A stretch of DNA of 36,636 nucleotides from a virus. The DNA is taken from positions 1-36,636 of the IMG/VR virus record IMGVR_UViG_3300025767_000060. One strand, written 5' to 3'. The notes beneath the pieces were generated by a model. That model was not told the DNA's origin and made no database searches. It saw only the letters and a program-made list of their open reading frames with translations. Each line of letters starts with the position of its first letter. Positions within the stretch are counted from its first letter, which is position 1. This document shows positions 4,874-23,887 of this stretch, piece after piece. The translations under genes and the position numbers were made by a program.

Positions 4874-5451
4874 TCTTTAATAGTTATCTCTTTTAAGTTT
4901 GGTTTCTCACCATTATATATTACACTTTGCCAACAATCTTTTCCATAATCCTGGTCACAGGTAAGCATCATATTAGGGGCCAAAGCCCAATCAAGATGAG
5001 TCCTATACTTCATCTTAACAGAAAATCGCTCTATAGCAGGTCGCCGTGATATACTTTGCATAGAAACAAAGGCAGAATTATAACCTTTAATATAATCCAA
5101 CTGATATGGTAACAATCTCATAGTTGGGCTGTGGAAAGTATCTACTTTAGGGTTTGTAAATCTCCTATAGTCTCTGTAGATATATGTTCTAGTGAGCAAT
5201 CTATAACAGCCATCATAGTATTTCTGAATTGTAGAAAATGCTACCGGTCTATCACCGTCAAAAAGAAAAAACCATTCTTCATAATCAAAGAATGTATCAG
5301 GAAGAATGTCAAACCATTCTATATTACGCTTATCATAAAGTTTATTTTCTTTACCAAGTCTTATTAATTCATTTCGAAAGTTTTCATATCCGTATTCTTC
5401 AAGTGTTAAGACTTTTTGATTAATCGTATAAACCACGATGCTGGATCCCAT
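4843..5451 (-). CDS. Putative acyltransferase-like protein (GNAT fold suspected)
   Basis: About 200 residues with no motif I can name firmly. A stretch reading FLFDGDRPVAFSTIQKY followed by RLLTRTYIYRDYRR resembles the central beta strands and acyl-CoA region of GNAT enzymes, and the operon context favours a transferase. The annotated ATG overlaps the desaturase gene by 46 bases; a GTG at 5436 would shorten this. Trp and Tyr are abundant. The acyltransferase label is tentative; an unknown phage-specific enzyme is equally possible. Confidence 0.45.
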   Translation of the reverse strand: MGSSIVVYTINQKVLTLEEYGYENFRNELIRLGKENKLYDKRNIEWFDILPDTFFDYEEWFFLFDGDRPVAFSTIQKYYDGCYRLLTRTYIYRDYRRFTNPKVDTFHSPTMRLLPYQLDYIKGYNSAFVSMQSISRRPAIERFSVKMKYRTHLDWALAPNMMLTCDQDYGKDCWQSVIYNGEKPNLKEITIKEWKDRWQKSV

Positions 5452-6041
5452 TCATACCACTTTTTCCCAATCTGCCAATCCATGGGCTTTTCATGATGAT
5501 TAGCGTGCCATCCTTCACCGCCGGTTAAAATGTTAGCTATCCAAGAATTGGAGACATTTTCATGACGGTGGCACAATGTATTTAGTAGACCAAATCCGAT
5601 ATAACCATATATCATTGGTGATATAATGAGTATTATATACCATTCAATAGGTAAAAGTAACCCCATAAAAAGGGTCGAAAGTCTAATTTCTTTATGATGT
5701 TTATGAAACCACATAACGCGTTTGTTTTTAAGTAAGTCAGTCACGTGTCTTGGGCGAATTGCAGGCACTTTAAATGTAGAAGTTAATACTCTCCAAACAG
5801 GCTGGTGCTTAGGCGAATGCGGATCTTTTTCGGTATCTGAGTGATTATGGTGCATTCTATGAACTCCAACCCAACCAAGGACCGATCCGGAGCCTGACAA
5901 TGGGCCTAATATAAGTACCAGATATTCATACCAGACGTGAGCTTTAAATGATTTGTGCGAAAAATATCTGTGGTATCCTGCGGAAATTACGACTGAAGAT
6001 AAAAAGAACCACCAGATAAAACTATATAAAACATAAATCAA
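5406..6041 (-). CDS. Fatty acid (acyl-CoA type) desaturase
   Basis: Membrane di-iron desaturases introduce a double bond into fatty acyl chains. All three histidine boxes are present: HRYFSH (residues 24-29), HRMHH (61-65) and HANHH (179-183), with the family phrases AGYHRYFSHKSF, GVHRMHHNHSDTEKDPHSP and GGEGWHANHH. Hydrophobic segments flank them (about 1-20, 38-57, 125-152). At 211 residues it is shorter than the usual 250-320 but keeps the catalytic core. It would act in the host inner membrane using host electron donors. Start and stop overlap its neighbours in the operon. Confidence 0.9.
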   Translation of the reverse strand: MIYVLYSFIWWFFLSSVVISAGYHRYFSHKSFKAHVWYEYLVLILGPLSGSGSVLGWVGVHRMHHNHSDTEKDPHSPKHQPVWRVLTSTFKVPAIRPRHVTDLLKNKRVMWFHKHHKEIRLSTLFMGLLLPIEWYIILIISPMIYGYIGFGLLNTLCHRHENVSNSWIANILTGGEGWHANHHEKPMDWQIGKKWYEWDPASWFIRLIKKS

Positions 6042-6859
6042 ATGTAAAGTTCCTTATATTTGTTTATAAATTCTTGAGCGAATATTTCTTGACCTAATTT
6101 ATTAGGATGTTTATCTTTATCAGATATAAAACAGTTTTCTTTATGATCATATCTCAAAATATCTAAAAAATATCCATTTAATAGTGGCCAAAATGGCCAA
6201 CCTATAATGCTATTTTTAGTTTTTTCTATTTGATCAAACATGGGATTGTCCATAAAGTATTGTATGGTTTGGCTTTTATCAATATAAGCTGCCGGGTTTA
6301 ATCTACCTTCTTTTTGCATTTCATCAAGAACCCAAAAACTAAAAAATGTAAGGCCTTGGCCCATTATAAGTTTTATATTACGAGCCTTGCAAATATCTAT
6401 GATTGCTATCATTCTAGATAACTGACTTTCTATCATATTTTTATAAACATCTTTATTGAAATTTTTGTTATTCCAAAATTTTTTGTTTATTTCGCCGATT
6501 CCAATATCATCCATCCAAGAGGTAATTTTAGAATTATTGCCATAATCATTATAAACTTCCATCAAAGCGTTAAAATCAAATGTATAAAAAGATTCCCTAT
6601 CTGCGCCGCTCCACAAAATAGCAATAGTATCAATTTTATCTCCATGACTAGCTATCCCTTTAATAACTTCCCTGAAAATAAAATCAGAACTAGCGCCGGA
6701 TTTTCCTAGATTGACACACTCTAAGTTTAATTCATTAGCCATAAGTTCAGGCCACATTGGCCAACCTGACCGTCCAACGTCTGGTAATGAGTCATCGCTG
6801 GATCTAAAGTTTTTATCTGTGTATGAACAGCCGGCAGCTAATAAAATCTTTTTACTCAT
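6038..6859 (-). CDS. SGNH/GDSL-like hydrolase, paralogue 2
   Basis: The N-terminus (KILLAAGCSYTD) has the block I serine, followed by NLGKSGASSDFI (block II Gly), AILWSGADRES (block III region) and a C-terminal DKHPNKLGQEI that supplies the Asp-x-x-His pair. SGNH enzymes are esterases or O-acyltransfer partners acting on lipids or acetylated sugars. It is a clear tandem duplicate of the next gene upstream: both share WPMWPELMANEL, a mid-protein WMDDIGIG/WMDDIGVG motif and the same ending. The two genes overlap by ATGA. Confidence 0.75.
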   Translation of the reverse strand: MSKKILLAAGCSYTDKNFRSSDDSLPDVGRSGWPMWPELMANELNLECVNLGKSGASSDFIFREVIKGIASHGDKIDTIAILWSGADRESFYTFDFNALMEVYNDYGNNSKITSWMDDIGIGEINKKFWNNKNFNKDVYKNMIESQLSRMIAIIDICKARNIKLIMGQGLTFFSFWVLDEMQKEGRLNPAAYIDKSQTIQYFMDNPMFDQIEKTKNSIIGWPFWPLLNGYFLDILRYDHKENCFISDKDKHPNKLGQEIFAQEFINKYKELYI

Positions 6860-7665
6860 TTATAAATTTCTCGATATCTTTTAGTAAATTCATTAGCTAT
6901 CATTTTTTGACCAAGTTTATTAGGATGTCTATCAAGGGCAGAAATATAATATTCTTCTTTATCGTGTCTTATATCATCAAATGAATACCCGCCGATTTCT
7001 TTCATTATCGGCCAACCAATAAAATGTTTTTTTCTTCTGCTAACCTCAGTAAATATTGGATTATTTGTTAAAATGTTAACTACTTCTGAAGGCGGTATTG
7101 CACACTTGACTGGCAACTGTTTATTTTGAACCATTTGATTTATTGCAAAATAATCAAAATATACTAAACCGCCAAACATAACAAATTTTATATTACGGTT
7201 TTCACATATTTCCATAATAGCAAACATTTTTTTAATAGGATTCTGAATCATGGTTCTATACGTATCGGTACGCATAAAATGTGTGTTATTGAAATATTTT
7301 TGGCTTACTCGTCCAACCCCAATATCATCCATCCATGGAAATGGATCAAAACCGCCGGCGAGGCAATCGGTGTTACACTCTACAATAGGATTAAGAGTGA
7401 AATTAAAAAATGGAAGTCTATCAGAAGTAGACCACAGAATGGCTACAGTGTCTACTCTATTACCGTATGTAGCTAACCCTTCTAGAATTGTATCTAGTAT
7501 ATAATCAGCGCCGGCGCCAGATCGACCTTTATTTACACACTGTAAACCCAGCTCATTAGCCATAAGCTCTGGCCACATTGGCCAATCAGGTTCTACGTTA
7601 GGATCACATGATTTATATTTTCCGTCAGTATAAGAACAACCTGAAGCTAAAAGTATCTTTTTCAT
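6856..7665 (-). CDS. SGNH/GDSL-like hydrolase, paralogue 1
   Basis: Same architecture as its tandem copy: KKILLASGCSYTDG with Ser11 as candidate nucleophile, NKGRSGAGADYI, AILWSTSDR, and DRHPNKLGQKM near the C-terminus for the Asp/His pair. Block III lacks the usual GxND Asn, so the oxyanion hole must be built differently. The ATG overlaps the carbamoyltransferase stop codon as TGATG. Two diverged copies kept side by side suggest two related substrates or a heterodimer. Confidence 0.75.
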   Translation of the reverse strand: MKKILLASGCSYTDGKYKSCDPNVEPDWPMWPELMANELGLQCVNKGRSGAGADYILDTILEGLATYGNRVDTVAILWSTSDRLPFFNFTLNPIVECNTDCLAGGFDPFPWMDDIGVGRVSQKYFNNTHFMRTDTYRTMIQNPIKKMFAIMEICENRNIKFVMFGGLVYFDYFAINQMVQNKQLPVKCAIPPSEVVNILTNNPIFTEVSRRKKHFIGWPIMKEIGGYSFDDIRHDKEEYYISALDRHPNKLGQKMIANEFTKRYREIYK

Positions 7666-9029
7666 CAGTAAAATACCTTAACATTATACTTTGTTTGAAA
7701 CATTACAGCGTCTGATTCATTGTTTACCATTGGCATCCCTTTGATATTTAGACTTGTATTTAGCAGCATAGGAACACCAGTCAATTCATAGAACTCTTCA
7801 AGAATAGGACGAAGTACAGATCCGCAACTATTCTTTACAACCTGAACCCTTGCACTGCCATCAACGTGAGTAACTGAACTATAGTCATGCTTTGCTTGTG
7901 CTACAAACTGCATATATTCGTTCATCGGTCCTTCGAAATATTCAGAAGCAAATTCTTCCAAGATTGCAGGTGCAAAGGGGCGAAAGAGTTGCCGTTGTTT
8001 AATCTGGTTAACAGTATCCTTGATATCTCGTCTAGGGTCAGCAAGCAAGCTACGATTGCCAAGGGCACGAGGGCCAAACTCACTACGACCGTTTGCAACA
8101 CCGCAATAAGAATTATCAACAATATACTGAGCAACTTTTTTAGGGTTGATATTACGTTCAATATTGTATCCAAGATACGGATCCTTCCATTTTAATTTAC
8201 GTCCATATGCCAACGCTGCAGCACCAAGTGATGAACCCGCATCACCCGGGTTTGGCATAATCCAAATGTTCTTATCTTTAATCTTACTGTTAGCTGCACA
8301 ATTGAGTGCACATCCACCCATATATACTAGGTTCGGATGAGTGCAATAGTTATCAATAATCTTAAGTAATTCTTTTTCAAACGTAGCTTGGGCTGATGCG
8401 GCTAAGTCTTCGTTCTTTGCATTTGGCAAATAGTCGCCAATACCTTTATGATTGTTACGATGTAGCAGTTCAGACATATCATAGATAGGTTCACCATAAG
8501 CAGCCATACCCATAAGAATATATTCGTCTTCATTAGGTTTTAATCCGACACGCTGTGTCACTGCAGAGTAAAATAGGCCGAGAGAGTACGGATACTTCCA
8601 GCTTTTGATCTTTCTCATCTGCGCGTGATTATAATGATCCGTCCAAGCTTCCCATACAGAAATTGTATCCCATTCTCCAATGGAATCAATAACTAATACA
8701 TTAGCTTTATCAAACGGAGATGTATGGAATCCAGCTGCAGCATGTGACTGATGGTGATAGAATGTTTTCTTTTTACACATATCAAAGCACCAATCACACT
8801 TATATGATTTTATGGCTTCTTGCCCAAATAGAACTCTTCGAGTATTCTTAAGCCAATTCTTTTCATAATATGCGTATAAATCATGATCAAAATACTGATC
8901 AGGATGAATATTAGGATCATTCTTAATTTTAGAATACCGCTCAGAATGACCAGCATAAAGAATTTCACCTTTATCCACTAATGCAACACCTGCATCATGG
9001 AAACCTTCACTCACACCCAAAATTCTCAT
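7665..9029 (-). CDS. Carbamoyltransferase (NodU/CmcH/TobZ family)
   Basis: The family transfers a carbamoyl group from carbamoyl phosphate, via carbamoyl-adenylate, to hydroxyls on sugars or antibiotics. The N-terminal Kae1-like domain shows MRILGVSEGFHDAGVALV, the metal-binding YHHQSHAAAGF, VLVIDSIGEWDT, MGGCALNCAANS and GDAGSSLGAA. The C-terminal domain shows GRSEFGPRALGNRSLLADP, FRPFAPAILEE and LNTSLNIKGMPMV. At 454 residues it is shorter than typical members (about 540-600). The ATG at 9029 is preferred over 9047 because it matches the family N-terminus and follows GGGTGG. It is the first gene of the seven-gene operon. Confidence 0.93.
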   Translation of the reverse strand: MRILGVSEGFHDAGVALVDKGEILYAGHSERYSKIKNDPNIHPDQYFDHDLYAYYEKNWLKNTRRVLFGQEAIKSYKCDWCFDMCKKKTFYHHQSHAAAGFHTSPFDKANVLVIDSIGEWDTISVWEAWTDHYNHAQMRKIKSWKYPYSLGLFYSAVTQRVGLKPNEDEYILMGMAAYGEPIYDMSELLHRNNHKGIGDYLPNAKNEDLAASAQATFEKELLKIIDNYCTHPNLVYMGGCALNCAANSKIKDKNIWIMPNPGDAGSSLGAAALAYGRKLKWKDPYLGYNIERNINPKKVAQYIVDNSYCGVANGRSEFGPRALGNRSLLADPRRDIKDTVNQIKQRQLFRPFAPAILEEFASEYFEGPMNEYMQFVAQAKHDYSSVTHVDGSARVQVVKNSCGSVLRPILEEFYELTGVPMLLNTSLNIKGMPMVNNESDAVMFQTKYNVKVFY

Positions 9030-9062
9030 AGTATACCACCCATCCATAAAAGATACTTTTAT

Positions 9063-13297: not shown

Positions 13298-13891
13298 TTA
13301 TTCTAATTCATCAGCCATACCGTGATTAACATCTGCGTGACCCTGTTCATCGTTGCGAACAGCAATTACTACATCACGCAGTGTCGAATTTTTGTTTAAC
13401 TCGTAGTAATCAATAGCAATCTGAGGCGCTTGTATATTTTCTGTGCGCCCTGCATCGATCTCTTCGAGATATTGAGTGTAACTTATGACTGCTTGATCCT
13501 CGAAGTATCCAACCATTCTATGCGCAGTCTTTGGAAAGAAAACATACAGAATAAAATAGAAGTGCCAAAACACAAATTGAGCAAATAGAATAATTAAACG
13601 TTCGAACCAATTTGGTTTAGCGATCTCAATAAAGATCATTAGGTGCATACGCTCATTCTCTGCTTCGTCTAGAAGTGTTTTAATCCAGCCTCTATCATCT
13701 GGTTGCATCTTTCTTAGGCTGCGCAAGTGTTGCCACATACCAGCAACCATACCAGGTACACCTGCAACAGTTTCTAACACAACTGCTCTGTGTCCGTATC
13801 GTTTAGCAAAGAATGTGTCAGCAAACAAGCGAAACGACATAGTTAACCCGTAAGCTACTTTGTCAGAAAATGTTCCAGGAGTTACATGCAT
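13298..13891 (-). CDS. aox: Alternative oxidase (di-iron ubiquinol oxidase)
   Basis: AOX oxidises ubiquinol and reduces oxygen to water without pumping protons. All ligand motifs are present: LETVAGVPGMV (Glu40), DEAENERMH (Glu80, His83), YLEEI (Glu143/144) and NDEQGHADVNH (Glu182, His185). Hydrophobic helices at about 96-120 give interfacial membrane binding. The 197-residue length matches a bacterial core enzyme without the plant-type N-terminal extension. Its start overlaps a 30-codon ORF, and it lies between the tmRNA and an outer-membrane protein. Cyanophages carry the related PTOX; this copy sits in a genome stretch with no photosynthesis gene. The assignment is firm. Confidence 0.93.
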   Translation of the reverse strand: MHVTPGTFSDKVAYGLTMSFRLFADTFFAKRYGHRAVVLETVAGVPGMVAGMWQHLRSLRKMQPDDRGWIKTLLDEAENERMHLMIFIEIAKPNWFERLIILFAQFVFWHFYFILYVFFPKTAHRMVGYFEDQAVISYTQYLEEIDAGRTENIQAPQIAIDYYELNKNSTLRDVVIAVRNDEQGHADVNHGMADELE

Positions 13892-13974
13892 AAATCTTCA
13901 TATCGCGTTGTGTGCTGACGATGCGTGCATAGCACTTGCTTTGTCGTAAAAATCTGCTTAAGGCGTTTAATCAT
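13882..13974 (-). CDS. 30-codon ORF upstream of alternative oxidase
   Basis: It starts ATG ATT AAA CGC with AAGGA seven bases upstream, encodes a basic peptide (MIKRLKQIFTTKQVL, then His/Thr-rich) and stops inside the first codons of the oxidase gene. This overlap suggests translational coupling: the oxidase ATG has no ribosome site of its own. It lies just after the tmRNA 3' end. It may be only a leader peptide. Confidence 0.5.
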   Translation of the reverse strand: MIKRLKQIFTTKQVLCTHRQHTTRYEDLCM

Positions 13975-13987
13975 TATATGTCCTTCA

Positions 13988-14010
13988 AGTTATAGTAAGC
14001 CCGTTCTGTT
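13988..14010 (-). repeat. tmRNA 3'-segment copy paired with 13241-13263
   Basis: The conserved 3' end of the coding piece (containing ACAGAACGG) is repeated imperfectly about 750 bases downstream, on the far side of the alternative oxidase gene. Confidence 0.65.
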
Positions 14011-14037
14011 TCTAGGTGGTGCTCATACCCACCAGCA

Positions 14038-14082
14038 TTATGCCGCTAGGGCGTAACCTGTAGGTGCGAAATTTTCATTTGC
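14038..14082 (-). other. ssrA: tmRNA tag reading frame
   Basis: The resume codon GCA at 14082 begins the tag ANENFAPTGYALAA, ended by TAA at 14038. The ALAA end is the classic ClpXP/ClpAP degradation signal, and ANENF is close to the ANDNF or ANDEN starts of bacterial tags. The tag is a phage-specific variant of an alphaproteobacterial-type tag. Confidence 0.9.
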
Positions 14083-14163
14083 ATTTAGTTTAATTGACCA
14101 ATAACGCAGTCATCCGGTAAACTCCACTTCATCTTCACACCTGTCGATCCTATTTCGACCCCA

Positions 14164-14247
14164 TCAAAAAAACACTGCGTTTATCATAAATCCTATTAAA
14201 ACTCCTACCAGAATATAGTAGAATTTATTAAAGATCAGATCATACAT
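14164..14247 (-). CDS. 27-codon hydrophobic ORF inside the tmRNA intervening segment
   Basis: ATG 14247 is preceded by AAGGG at a suitable spacing. The peptide begins MYDLIFNKFYYILVG and continues LIGFMINAVFF, a single membrane span. The stop codon ends one base before the mature 5' end of the coding piece (14162). If translated it would use a segment that is normally discarded. Short and unverified. Confidence 0.35.
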   Translation of the reverse strand: MYDLIFNKFYYILVGVLIGFMINAVFF

Positions 14248-14329
14248 AATAATGCCCTTTTGGTGGAGTCGCTGGGTACCGCCCCCAGGTCCAGAATGTG
14301 TCCACGTTGCTTCAACGTTTACAAGTTAT

Positions 14330-14358
14330 ATATTAACATAAGAGGCAGATTAAGTAAA
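14330..14358 (-). promoter_or_regulatory. Promoter of the tmRNA gene
   Basis: The -35 TTTACT (14353-14358) and -10 TAATAT (14330-14335) are 17 bases apart. Transcription would start near 14323, a few bases before the acceptor piece. Confidence 0.7.
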
Positions 14359-15693: not shown

Positions 15694-15903
15694 TTAATCT
15701 AGTTTTTTTATGCCAAGTGCCCAGTTCTCTGCAGCATCCTCGACATACCGCAAAGATTTGTTATGGAAATCCTCTGTAAAAAACTTTTTACCGTTATCAT
15801 CAAAGTACTCGATATAGATCATTTCTTCTTTTAAATCCATATGGACTTCACAATGACCTCGGCCAGGAGGATCGGCATAATACGTTGAGATTTTTCTATT
15901 CAT
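15694..15903 (-). CDS. Hypothetical protein, 69 aa
   Basis: Family not recognised. A small, probably beta-alpha protein (CEVHMDLKEEMIYIEYFDD, then KSLRYVEDAAENWALG). The ATG at 15903 overlaps the ThyX stop by eight bases, and an in-frame TTG three codons earlier is less likely to be used. It is probably co-transcribed with thyX. Confidence 0.65.
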   Translation of the reverse strand: MNRKISTYYADPPGRGHCEVHMDLKEEMIYIEYFDDNGKKFFTEDFHNKSLRYVEDAAENWALGIKKLD

Positions 15904-16588
15904 CTTGTACAAATTCCTCTACCATCGGAAAGATCTTAGCGATTGCCTTAGCAACTTCACGTGCAACTTCAATGTGTTCTTGTTGTGTGCCATTAGCAGA
16001 ACGCAATTCAATATAATGAACCCAAGAGCGAAGAGTACCATTCATATAGACTTTACTTACAGTATTGCCTTCAGGAAGAACACACCGAGCTTGTTCCTTT
16101 GCAATGCCATTCATAATTGCCCATTGATACGCAAGTTTAGCTTCATGAATAATCTGGGTTTGTTTCATTGCCCAAGCTTTTTGCAATTCAAGATCGTCAC
16201 TTTCAATACTATTCTGACGATTCTTTGGATCTTGCATCCGTGCTTCTCTTAGAACAAAGGAAACATCAAGGTCGTTAGGATCGGCGTAGCGCTGGCTAAA
16301 TTCCTGAAAGTAGAAGCTTCTGTGTCGGAGGATCTGGCGGGCGATGTCCCTCGTCGTGTCGATGCCGATTGTGGCGTTGCACATTTCAAGGGGTGACCAG
16401 TGCTTGTGCTTGACGAGATATCGGACGAGCTTTTCTCCAGTTTCTGAGTTGAACTGGTTAGCTGGGTTAGATACTCGGGCACAGTAGGCAATAAGCTCAA
16501 GTGCGTCATTGAAGTGCTCCTTAAATTCTTCTGATGGTGCGGGTTGCACCACCAGAAAGGCATTCGCTTTTGAATACTGATATGACAT
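15896..16588 (-). CDS. thyX: Flavin-dependent thymidylate synthase ThyX
   Basis: ThyX makes dTMP from dUMP with methylene-tetrahydrofolate, FAD and NADPH. The signature RHRSFYFQEFSQRY (residues 88-101) matches RHRxxSxxxxSxRY, and HKHWSPLEM and the C-terminal LRSWVHYIELRSANGTQQEH complete the fold. The 230-residue length is normal. Because dTMP is supplied here, the second thymidylate-synthase-fold enzyme at 23213-23887 is free for another reaction. The start overlaps the preceding stop as TAATG. Confidence 0.95.
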   Translation of the reverse strand: MSYQYSKANAFLVVQPAPSEEFKEHFNDALELIAYCARVSNPANQFNSETGEKLVRYLVKHKHWSPLEMCNATIGIDTTRDIARQILRHRSFYFQEFSQRYADPNDLDVSFVLREARMQDPKNRQNSIESDDLELQKAWAMKQTQIIHEAKLAYQWAIMNGIAKEQARCVLPEGNTVSKVYMNGTLRSWVHYIELRSANGTQQEHIEVAREVAKAIAKIFPMVEEFVQDE

Positions 16589-23212: not shown

Positions 23213-23887
23213 TTAGTTCACCAAATTAAAGTGCTTTTCGTATACGTGCAAGTTCATTACTTGCCAATACAAATCACCCATTTCAAGCTTAGGTGTCATG
23301 CCACGGAATACAAGAGCATTAATCATATTGCTCATAAGATACTTTGCCCATGCATAGTCATTCTTATAACCAAAGACTACATCATTGCTGCGCATCTGGG
23401 ATACCATATGGAGTTTACTGTCACGGATATAGAATGTCTGAGCATTGGTACAGATAAAGTCATTCTTTCCATTTTCATTATACTCTACCCAAATTGATGG
23501 GCGATTATAAATCATTTGAGCACGACGAGAATCTGGATTTGATACTAGTTCATCTGCGGCATTCTGAAACTGGCGAAAGTACTTTTCAGAGAATAGTAGG
23601 TGACCATAGTTTGAATTGATTTCGCCATTATGGTTAGCCGAATATTTCCATGCGGCAGGTGGCTGTTTGTCTTTATGAATGTCGTTAATATTTGTTGACA
23701 TTGATTCATACCATGCAATCTCTGCATCAATATATTCCTGAGATGGAACACCGAAGATGGATGGTTCATCAGCAATAAACGATGCGCCTAGCATCTCAAT
23801 AGTCTTAGCACCAGTTTTATCAATCGTATATCGTTGCGCTGCCAGTTCGTCAAAGAAGTGGTCACGAATATCAGTCACTTTTAGCAT
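23213..23887 (-). CDS. Thymidylate-synthase-fold dNMP hydroxymethylase, probably dCMP type
   Basis: The TS superfamily is shown by NSNYGHLL, the phosphate-binding Arg pair in PDSRRAQM (121-122), the catalytic cysteine in DFICTNAQTF (Cys146), QMRSNDVVFGYKNDYAW (166-180) and LHVYEKH (214-219). At the position of the E. coli TS uracil-reading Asn177 this protein has Asp (Asp177), the change seen in T4 dCMP hydroxymethylase gp42. Most likely it makes 5-hydroxymethyl-dCMP; 5-hydroxymethyl-dUMP or plain methylation cannot be excluded. At 224 residues it is close to gp42 (246). ThyX elsewhere supplies dTMP. Confidence 0.8.
   Translation of the reverse strand: MLKVTDIRDHFFDELAAQRYTIDKTGAKTIEMLGASFIADEPSIFGVPSQEYIDAEIAWYESMSTNINDIHKDKQPPAAWKYSANHNGEINSNYGHLLFSEKYFRQFQNAADELVSNPDSRRAQMIYNRPSIWVEYNENGKNDFICTNAQTFYIRDSKLHMVSQMRSNDVVFGYKNDYAWAKYLMSNMINALVFRGMTPKLEMGDLYWQVMNLHVYEKHFNLVN

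Follow-up and report, generated by a model that had tools for sequence, protein, structure and literature searches.

Two-piece tmRNAs encoded by phages have been described before. The report on the Methylophilales phage Melnitz (PMC9004378) describes the two-piece tmRNA of that phage and gives a count of 53 two-piece tmRNAs for phage genomes, with 50 classed as marine or aquatic. The novelty that the original prediction implied for a permuted tmRNA in a phage is unwarranted because of this count. Melnitz (MZ577097; locus L531 in our collection) resembles the phage studied here in being marine and T4-like and in combining an alphaproteobacterial-type permuted tmRNA with an intervening sequence (IVS) that bears an ORF. 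The ORF is our own reading of the sequence: in an IVS of 142 nt, an unannotated KYL-type frame runs into the coding piece. An ORF in the Melnitz IVS is not mentioned in the portion of PMC9004378 available, and the Melnitz minigene belongs to a different family from the one described below. Directly 3' of the Melnitz tmRNA lies a glutamine riboswitch (L531 3107-3155), whereas cmscan found none in our sequence; another such riboswitch was seen near the tmRNA of L330 (3514-3567). A survey of 97,179 tmRNA sequences (PMC11915505), whose database contains 11,946 permuted ones, mentions in its accessible text a single tRNA gene and a single repeat located within an IVS. The permuted tmRNA of GCA-2688965, with tRNA-Ala in its IVS, is similar to our locus in that a second gene is placed within the IVS, but the insert is a gene for an RNA; the case stands alone and is called unique there, and the same accessible text leaves protein genes in the IVS unmentioned. 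It also treats intron-containing tmRNAs with homing endonuclease ORFs, which share with our locus a protein frame nested in a removed tmRNA segment; there, however, the segment is a group I intron in the T loop. In the literature searched, which lay mostly outside subscription papers, protein genes were nowhere described within a permuted tmRNA spacer.

The window, by which we mean the whole stretch of viral DNA analysed (IMG/VR record IMGVR_UViG_3300025767_000060, 36,636 nt), has the T4-like gene content that had been proposed for it, with a gp43 polymerase, a gp41-type (DnaB-like) helicase, UvsX and a gp45 sliding clamp. By polymerase, phage C48C1 is the closest of the named records (55%). 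The tmRNA gene lies on the minus strand between an 82-aa ORF (14643-14395) and the gene of an alternative oxidase (13891-13298; PF01786, E 6e-81), which follows it directly. Relatives of this oxidase were found in 229 candidate stretches in IMG/VR and in one named record, again phage C48C1 (57%). Elsewhere in the window, both kinds of thymidylate synthase are apparently present on the minus strand (15896-16588 and 23213-23887), as ThyX (PF02511) and a thymidylate synthase PHROG match. Also on the minus strand are two adjacent similar genes of 273 and 269 aa, both starting ...KKILLA.GCSYTD... and apparently a tandem duplication (6038-7665), a Nol-like carbamoyltransferase (7665-9047; phrog_1601, E 4e-89) and an ORF in which the motifs HRYFSHKSF and HRMHHNHSD, recognized by eye, suggest a putative fatty acid desaturase (5406-6041).

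The tmRNA gene itself is intact, of the permuted alphaproteobacterial type, and extends over approximately 13994-14322. The Rfam family alpha_tmRNA (RF01849), whose search had been proposed as the principal check, matched at 14398-13994 with 112.4 bits against a cut-off of 50 (E 4.2e-30), and tmRNA_permuted (RF04321) at 14322-14038 with 113.5 bits against a cut-off of 47 (E 1.3e-21; cmscan, minus strand for both). ARAGORN called a permuted tmRNA at 13947-14355 with the tag ANENFAPTGYALAA. The window shares with both Rfam families the gene order, acceptor stem, T arm, P2 and tag frame; it differs in being phage-encoded and in its 98-nt IVS with a conserved ORF, whereas relatives in one marine alphaproteobacteria family mostly have 11-23 nt. 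The acceptor piece is located 5' of the coding piece. The 7-bp acceptor stem, GGGGTCG/CGACTCC, contains the G3-U wobble that is used by alanyl-tRNA synthetase, and the ACCA end is encoded. The T arm is intact, an outer P2 helix is formed between GUAAAC and GUUUAC, and the tag runs in frame from a GCA resume codon to a stop, with a hydrophobic end. The anatomy anticipated by the original prediction could thus be located in full on the minus strand, and its two-piece character is borne out in the permuted layout of acceptor and coding pieces; the two mature pieces themselves would arise by cuts at the CCA and at the GGGG, as we infer from the sequence. A group I intron with a homing endonuclease was ruled out, as cmscan gave no Intron_gpI match in the window and the T loop is uninterrupted. 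Coordinates of all features are collected in Table 1.

Table 1. Features of the permuted tmRNA locus in the window
Feature	Position	Strand	Basis
Weak sigma70-like promoter, TTTACT-N17-TAATAT	14330..14358	-	8/12 consensus bases
Acceptor piece: P2 5' strand (14317-14322), T arm, acceptor 3' strand (14265-14271), CCA end	14261..14322	-	cmscan, coordinates, covariation
IVS, 98 nt, between CCA and GGGG, predicted absent from mature tmRNA	14163..14260	-	
IVS closing helix, 5' strand (AAAGGGCAT)	14252..14260	-	fixed-register pairing, covariation, fold
Shine-Dalgarno-like AAGGG, 8 nt ahead of ATG, within IVS helix	14255..14259	-	
Minigene, 27-aa hydrophobic ORF MYDLIFNKFYYILVGVLIGFMINAVFF	14164..14247	-	L452 homologue
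IVS closing helix, 3' strand	14167..14175	-	fold, fixed-register pairing
Coding piece: acceptor-stem GGGG 5' end to RF01849 match end	13994..14162	-	cmscan
P2 3' strand GUUUAC	14117..14122	-	coordinates
Tag reading frame ANENFAPTGYALAA and stop	14038..14082	-	ARAGORN, coordinates
30-aa ORF just 3' of tmRNA, family HRxHTxxYEDLCM	13882..13974	-	family inside IVS in other phages

A promoter had been placed just upstream of the gene. A candidate is indeed in position, and both of its hexamers are unchanged in the near-identical locus L112; it is weaker than claimed, with 8 of 12 consensus bases, and is absent from the list of the consensus promoter scan. In about 76% of related phage tmRNAs the equivalent position is occupied by TATAAAT. 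A late-promoter reading of this motif, common at the tmRNA start, was considered but set aside: several phage tmRNAs have, as read by eye, a −35-like TTGAC 17 nt upstream of it, and the window has TAATAT.

Phage permuted tmRNAs were gathered from IMG/VR with DNA patterns, which partly fixed acceptor pairs 1-4, 6 and 7 as well as the G3-U and CCA letters, and the weight therefore rests on the free pairs. Acceptor pair 5 occurs as GC in 157, TA in 68, CG in 22 and AT in 7 of 259 distinct loci and covaries together with T-stem pairs 1-3 at 99-100% pairing; at T-stem pairs 1 and 2 each of the four Watson-Crick combinations occurs, with 100% pairing. G3-U70 is present in 259/259 loci, its letters being partly fixed by the search patterns. 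The compensatory changes sought across related phages are accordingly found in acceptor pair 5 and T-stem pairs 1-3, with P2 lying outside the count. All tmRNA stems are intact in the 38 of these loci that bear an ORF in the IVS, which rules out a broken tmRNA with an inserted gene.

Of the functions first proposed for this RNA, rescue of ribosomes after host shut-off and redirection of proteins through an altered tag are both conjectural. Among 104 distinct phage tags, LAA is found at the end of 79 and IAA at the end of 11; the tag of the window ends in ...ALAA. Host tags from a genome scan resemble the phage tags; the proposed comparison with hosts holds for this set rather than for SAR11, Roseobacter and SAR116 by name. 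The end is ordinary and alike in hosts and therefore nothing suggests an altered destination, so that from its sequence the tag looks like a normal degron tag and not a redirected one. A phage RNA consisting of the tmRNA-like domain only (DS6A type) is reported, in the accessible text of PMC4131195 and PMC11915505, to inhibit host tmRNA, and by analogy the phage tmRNA might be a decoy that inhibits host trans-translation instead of working. We consider this very improbable here, as a decoy would have no need of the tag frame, resume codon, stop and normal ALAA end that are kept in the window, nor of the LAA or IAA ends of most tags. No SmpB gene was found in the window.

The IVS had been described as an intervening loop, a reading that missed a conserved small protein gene inside it. 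AAAGGG follows immediately 3' of the CCA, an ATG lies 13 nt into the IVS, and the TGA of the frame ends one base short of the coding piece. The product, MYDLIFNKFYYILVGVLIGFMINAVFF, consists mostly of a single hydrophobic segment (GRAVY 1.57). One homologue of this ORF was found, in another viral contig (L452), the flanks of which do not align with the window; its IVS is also 98 nt long and carries MYDLIFNKFYYVLLGILIGFTINAVFF. Synonymous changes between the two ORFs numbered 9.0 (15.8 sites) and nonsynonymous changes 4.0 (65.2 sites), giving a dN/dS of about 0.06; when the same changes were placed at random, about 3% of trials had a count of amino-acid changes this low. As a single pair, this is modest sequence evidence for codon-level purifying selection on the window ORF; it becomes strong because the pattern is general across phages. 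A tblastn search of named phages with the 27-aa product and with a 29-aa minigene product gave no match, as expected for queries so short.

To quantify such frames, an IVS was scored as bearing an ORF when an ATG occurred no more than 40 nt from the CCA, with a ribosome-binding site before it and a frame of at least 18 codons. In an unselected sample, composed of viral tmRNAs picked regardless of their IVS, 9 of 79 distinct IVSs had such an ORF, compared with a mean of 0.57 and a maximum of 3 in 60 runs of dinucleotide shuffling; about 89% of the phage IVSs in this sample are without one. With targeted scans added, 91 of 287 distinct IVSs qualified versus 4.0 in shuffles, a count that is inflated by the targeting. 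The 91 ORFs form 29 similarity groups, of which approximately 25 unrelated families were kept: a GDSDEE-type group, with a pN/pS of 0.59, was not taken as coding and was left out, and we regard as doubtful those frames whose stop is distant from the coding piece. Among the larger families, pN/pS is 0.22 for MDEV (66 pairs), 0.27 for KYLG, 0.34 for MEIIW and 0.09 for MYYVM; the minigene pair L113/L431 shows no constraint (1.03). Several families have a transmembrane-like segment. The stops are found at fixed places: some precede the coding piece, by 1 or about 12 nt, and others lie 13 nt inside it.

Five minigene families were found both within an IVS and as free ORFs outside the tmRNA. One is inside the IVS in L111, L421 and L435 and just upstream of the tmRNA in L226, L256, L134, L275 and cultured Melnitz, the annotation of which lists it as gene 85. 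A second is inside in L102 and L425 and outside in L422 and L008, and the families of L439 and L417 likewise occur in both situations. The fifth, the YEDLCM family, is inside the IVS in L227, L247 and L438 and is represented in the window by the 30-aa ORF directly 3' of the tmRNA. The end of this ORF overlaps the start of the oxidase gene; the loci with the family inside the IVS are without an oxidase gene. Seven loci (L112, L461, L456, L450, L445, L427 and L021) have acceptor pieces 100% and coding pieces 95-97% identical to those of the window, and these near-identical cores hold a different minigene of 156 nt, MKQYSKEYLEFELKHTKELVELHHNTRDEELRLQILEVRKTLERIFLMGSK... In the five for which a full alignment was made, the upstream flank is 90% identical and the tag is the same as in the window; in those that include downstream sequence, the oxidase gene is passed over by the alignment. 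In further phages linked to the oxidase (L348, L338 and L357), the IVS is purely structured, with AGATACA.../...TGTATCT closing it. At the level of sequence, minigenes are thus exchanged like cassettes between near-identical tmRNA cores.

Taking these observations into consideration, we put the probability that the IVS holds a real, translated minigene within a tmRNA of the working type at roughly 85%, an estimate made from sequence, in which tmRNA anatomy, ORF and ribosome-binding site, purifying selection, recurrent unrelated minigenes, exchange and a covarying helix can all be seen. Chance ORFs as such were ruled out by the shuffles together with the codon tests. The related reading in which the tmRNA is real, the frame of the window accidental in AT-rich DNA and the spacer only structured RNA for processing appears unlikely. 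The ORF is short, many phage IVSs and nearly all host IVSs are without one, and the IVS helix is kept irrespective of it; yet shuffles yield far fewer ORFs, synonymous changes are favoured in the pair formed by the window and L452 and in most families, free genes outside the tmRNA include homologues, and different ORFs are found in near-identical cores.

The ends of the IVS are paired in a fixed register, base +i with base −(i+4), over ten pairs. In ORF-bearing IVSs 94% of cells are paired, with many pair types, as compared to 70% when the ends are swapped between loci. The helix is an extension of the acceptor stem and is conserved whether or not the IVS bears an ORF. IVSs of the AAGGA class have their ribosome-binding site within this helix, and the site of the window has a predicted unpaired probability of about 0.01. 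Because helix, ribosome-binding site and end of the ORF overlap, one DNA serves for the helix, the binding site and the last codons; the predicted burial of the binding site means that translation should be hindered unless the helix is opened. This geometry also fits a regulatory leader as the main role, in which the IVS helix would be opened by translating ribosomes and precursor processing thereby held back or promoted; tmRNA output would then track free ribosomes and the peptide would be minor. The position of the ribosome-binding site and the last codons in the closing helix and the fixed places of the stops are in its favour. The peptides are, however, conserved within families and wholly different between them, and some families exist as free genes elsewhere, neither of which a mere leader needs. 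We regard this role as improbable, if less so than an accidental frame, and it is compatible with a translated minigene.

The same DNA pattern, run on 84,980 prokaryote genomes, found 69 places, three of which have a frame in the IVS (L492, L469 and L516). The frame of L492 (PALK01000009.1), a contig in a Rickettsiales bin, is the same as that of the phage contig L425, the two contigs are equally long (29,883), and L492 is probably a misbinned phage contig. L469 and L516 are chromosomal tmRNAs. In the marine alphaproteobacteria family mentioned above, the IVS is 11-23 nt long in 11 of 14 genomes; in the remaining three (L469, L516 and L546) it measures 184 nt, has phage-like ends and contains a 49-codon frame, which in L546 is interrupted by an in-frame stop. 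These three, chromosomal or of the same cellular family, rule out that IVS ORFs are strictly phage-specific, and they suggest transfer of the frame from phage to host.

The IVS of the T4-like phage permuted tmRNA would, in the reading we prefer, be an exchangeable slot for small protein genes. A single transcript would comprise acceptor piece, minigene and coding piece, and the paired ends of the IVS would put the minigene in the loop of a long hairpin with the ribosome-binding site in its stem. Cleavage at CCA and GGGG would produce a two-piece tmRNA, which together with host SmpB and alanyl-tRNA synthetase could sustain ribosome rescue during infection. The minigene, with either the precursor or the released IVS as its message, would be translated into a 27-aa single-pass membrane microprotein that probably acts on the host. 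Joint transcription with the tmRNA and tolerance of any insert that leaves the closing helix intact are the probable reasons for the persistence of the slot. More tentatively, maturation of the tmRNA may also make a messenger: tRNA-processing enzymes might free the hairpin as a self-contained mini-mRNA, so that one transcript would give rescue RNA and microprotein. Phages would reload the slot through recombination, and a few bacterial chromosomes (L469, L516 and L546) would have acquired it as well.

The spacers of permuted tmRNAs have so far been regarded as waste. If small protein genes are routine in them, a gene for a ribosome-rescue RNA would also be a small-protein locus, one that annotation pipelines skip, and the IVS ORFs, about 25 families here, would constitute a reservoir of unannotated phage microproteins. 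The question of why phages keep a tmRNA of their own, whether for rescue, as an expressed carrier or for both, becomes testable, and given the minigene that we read in Melnitz it is testable now in a cultured phage.
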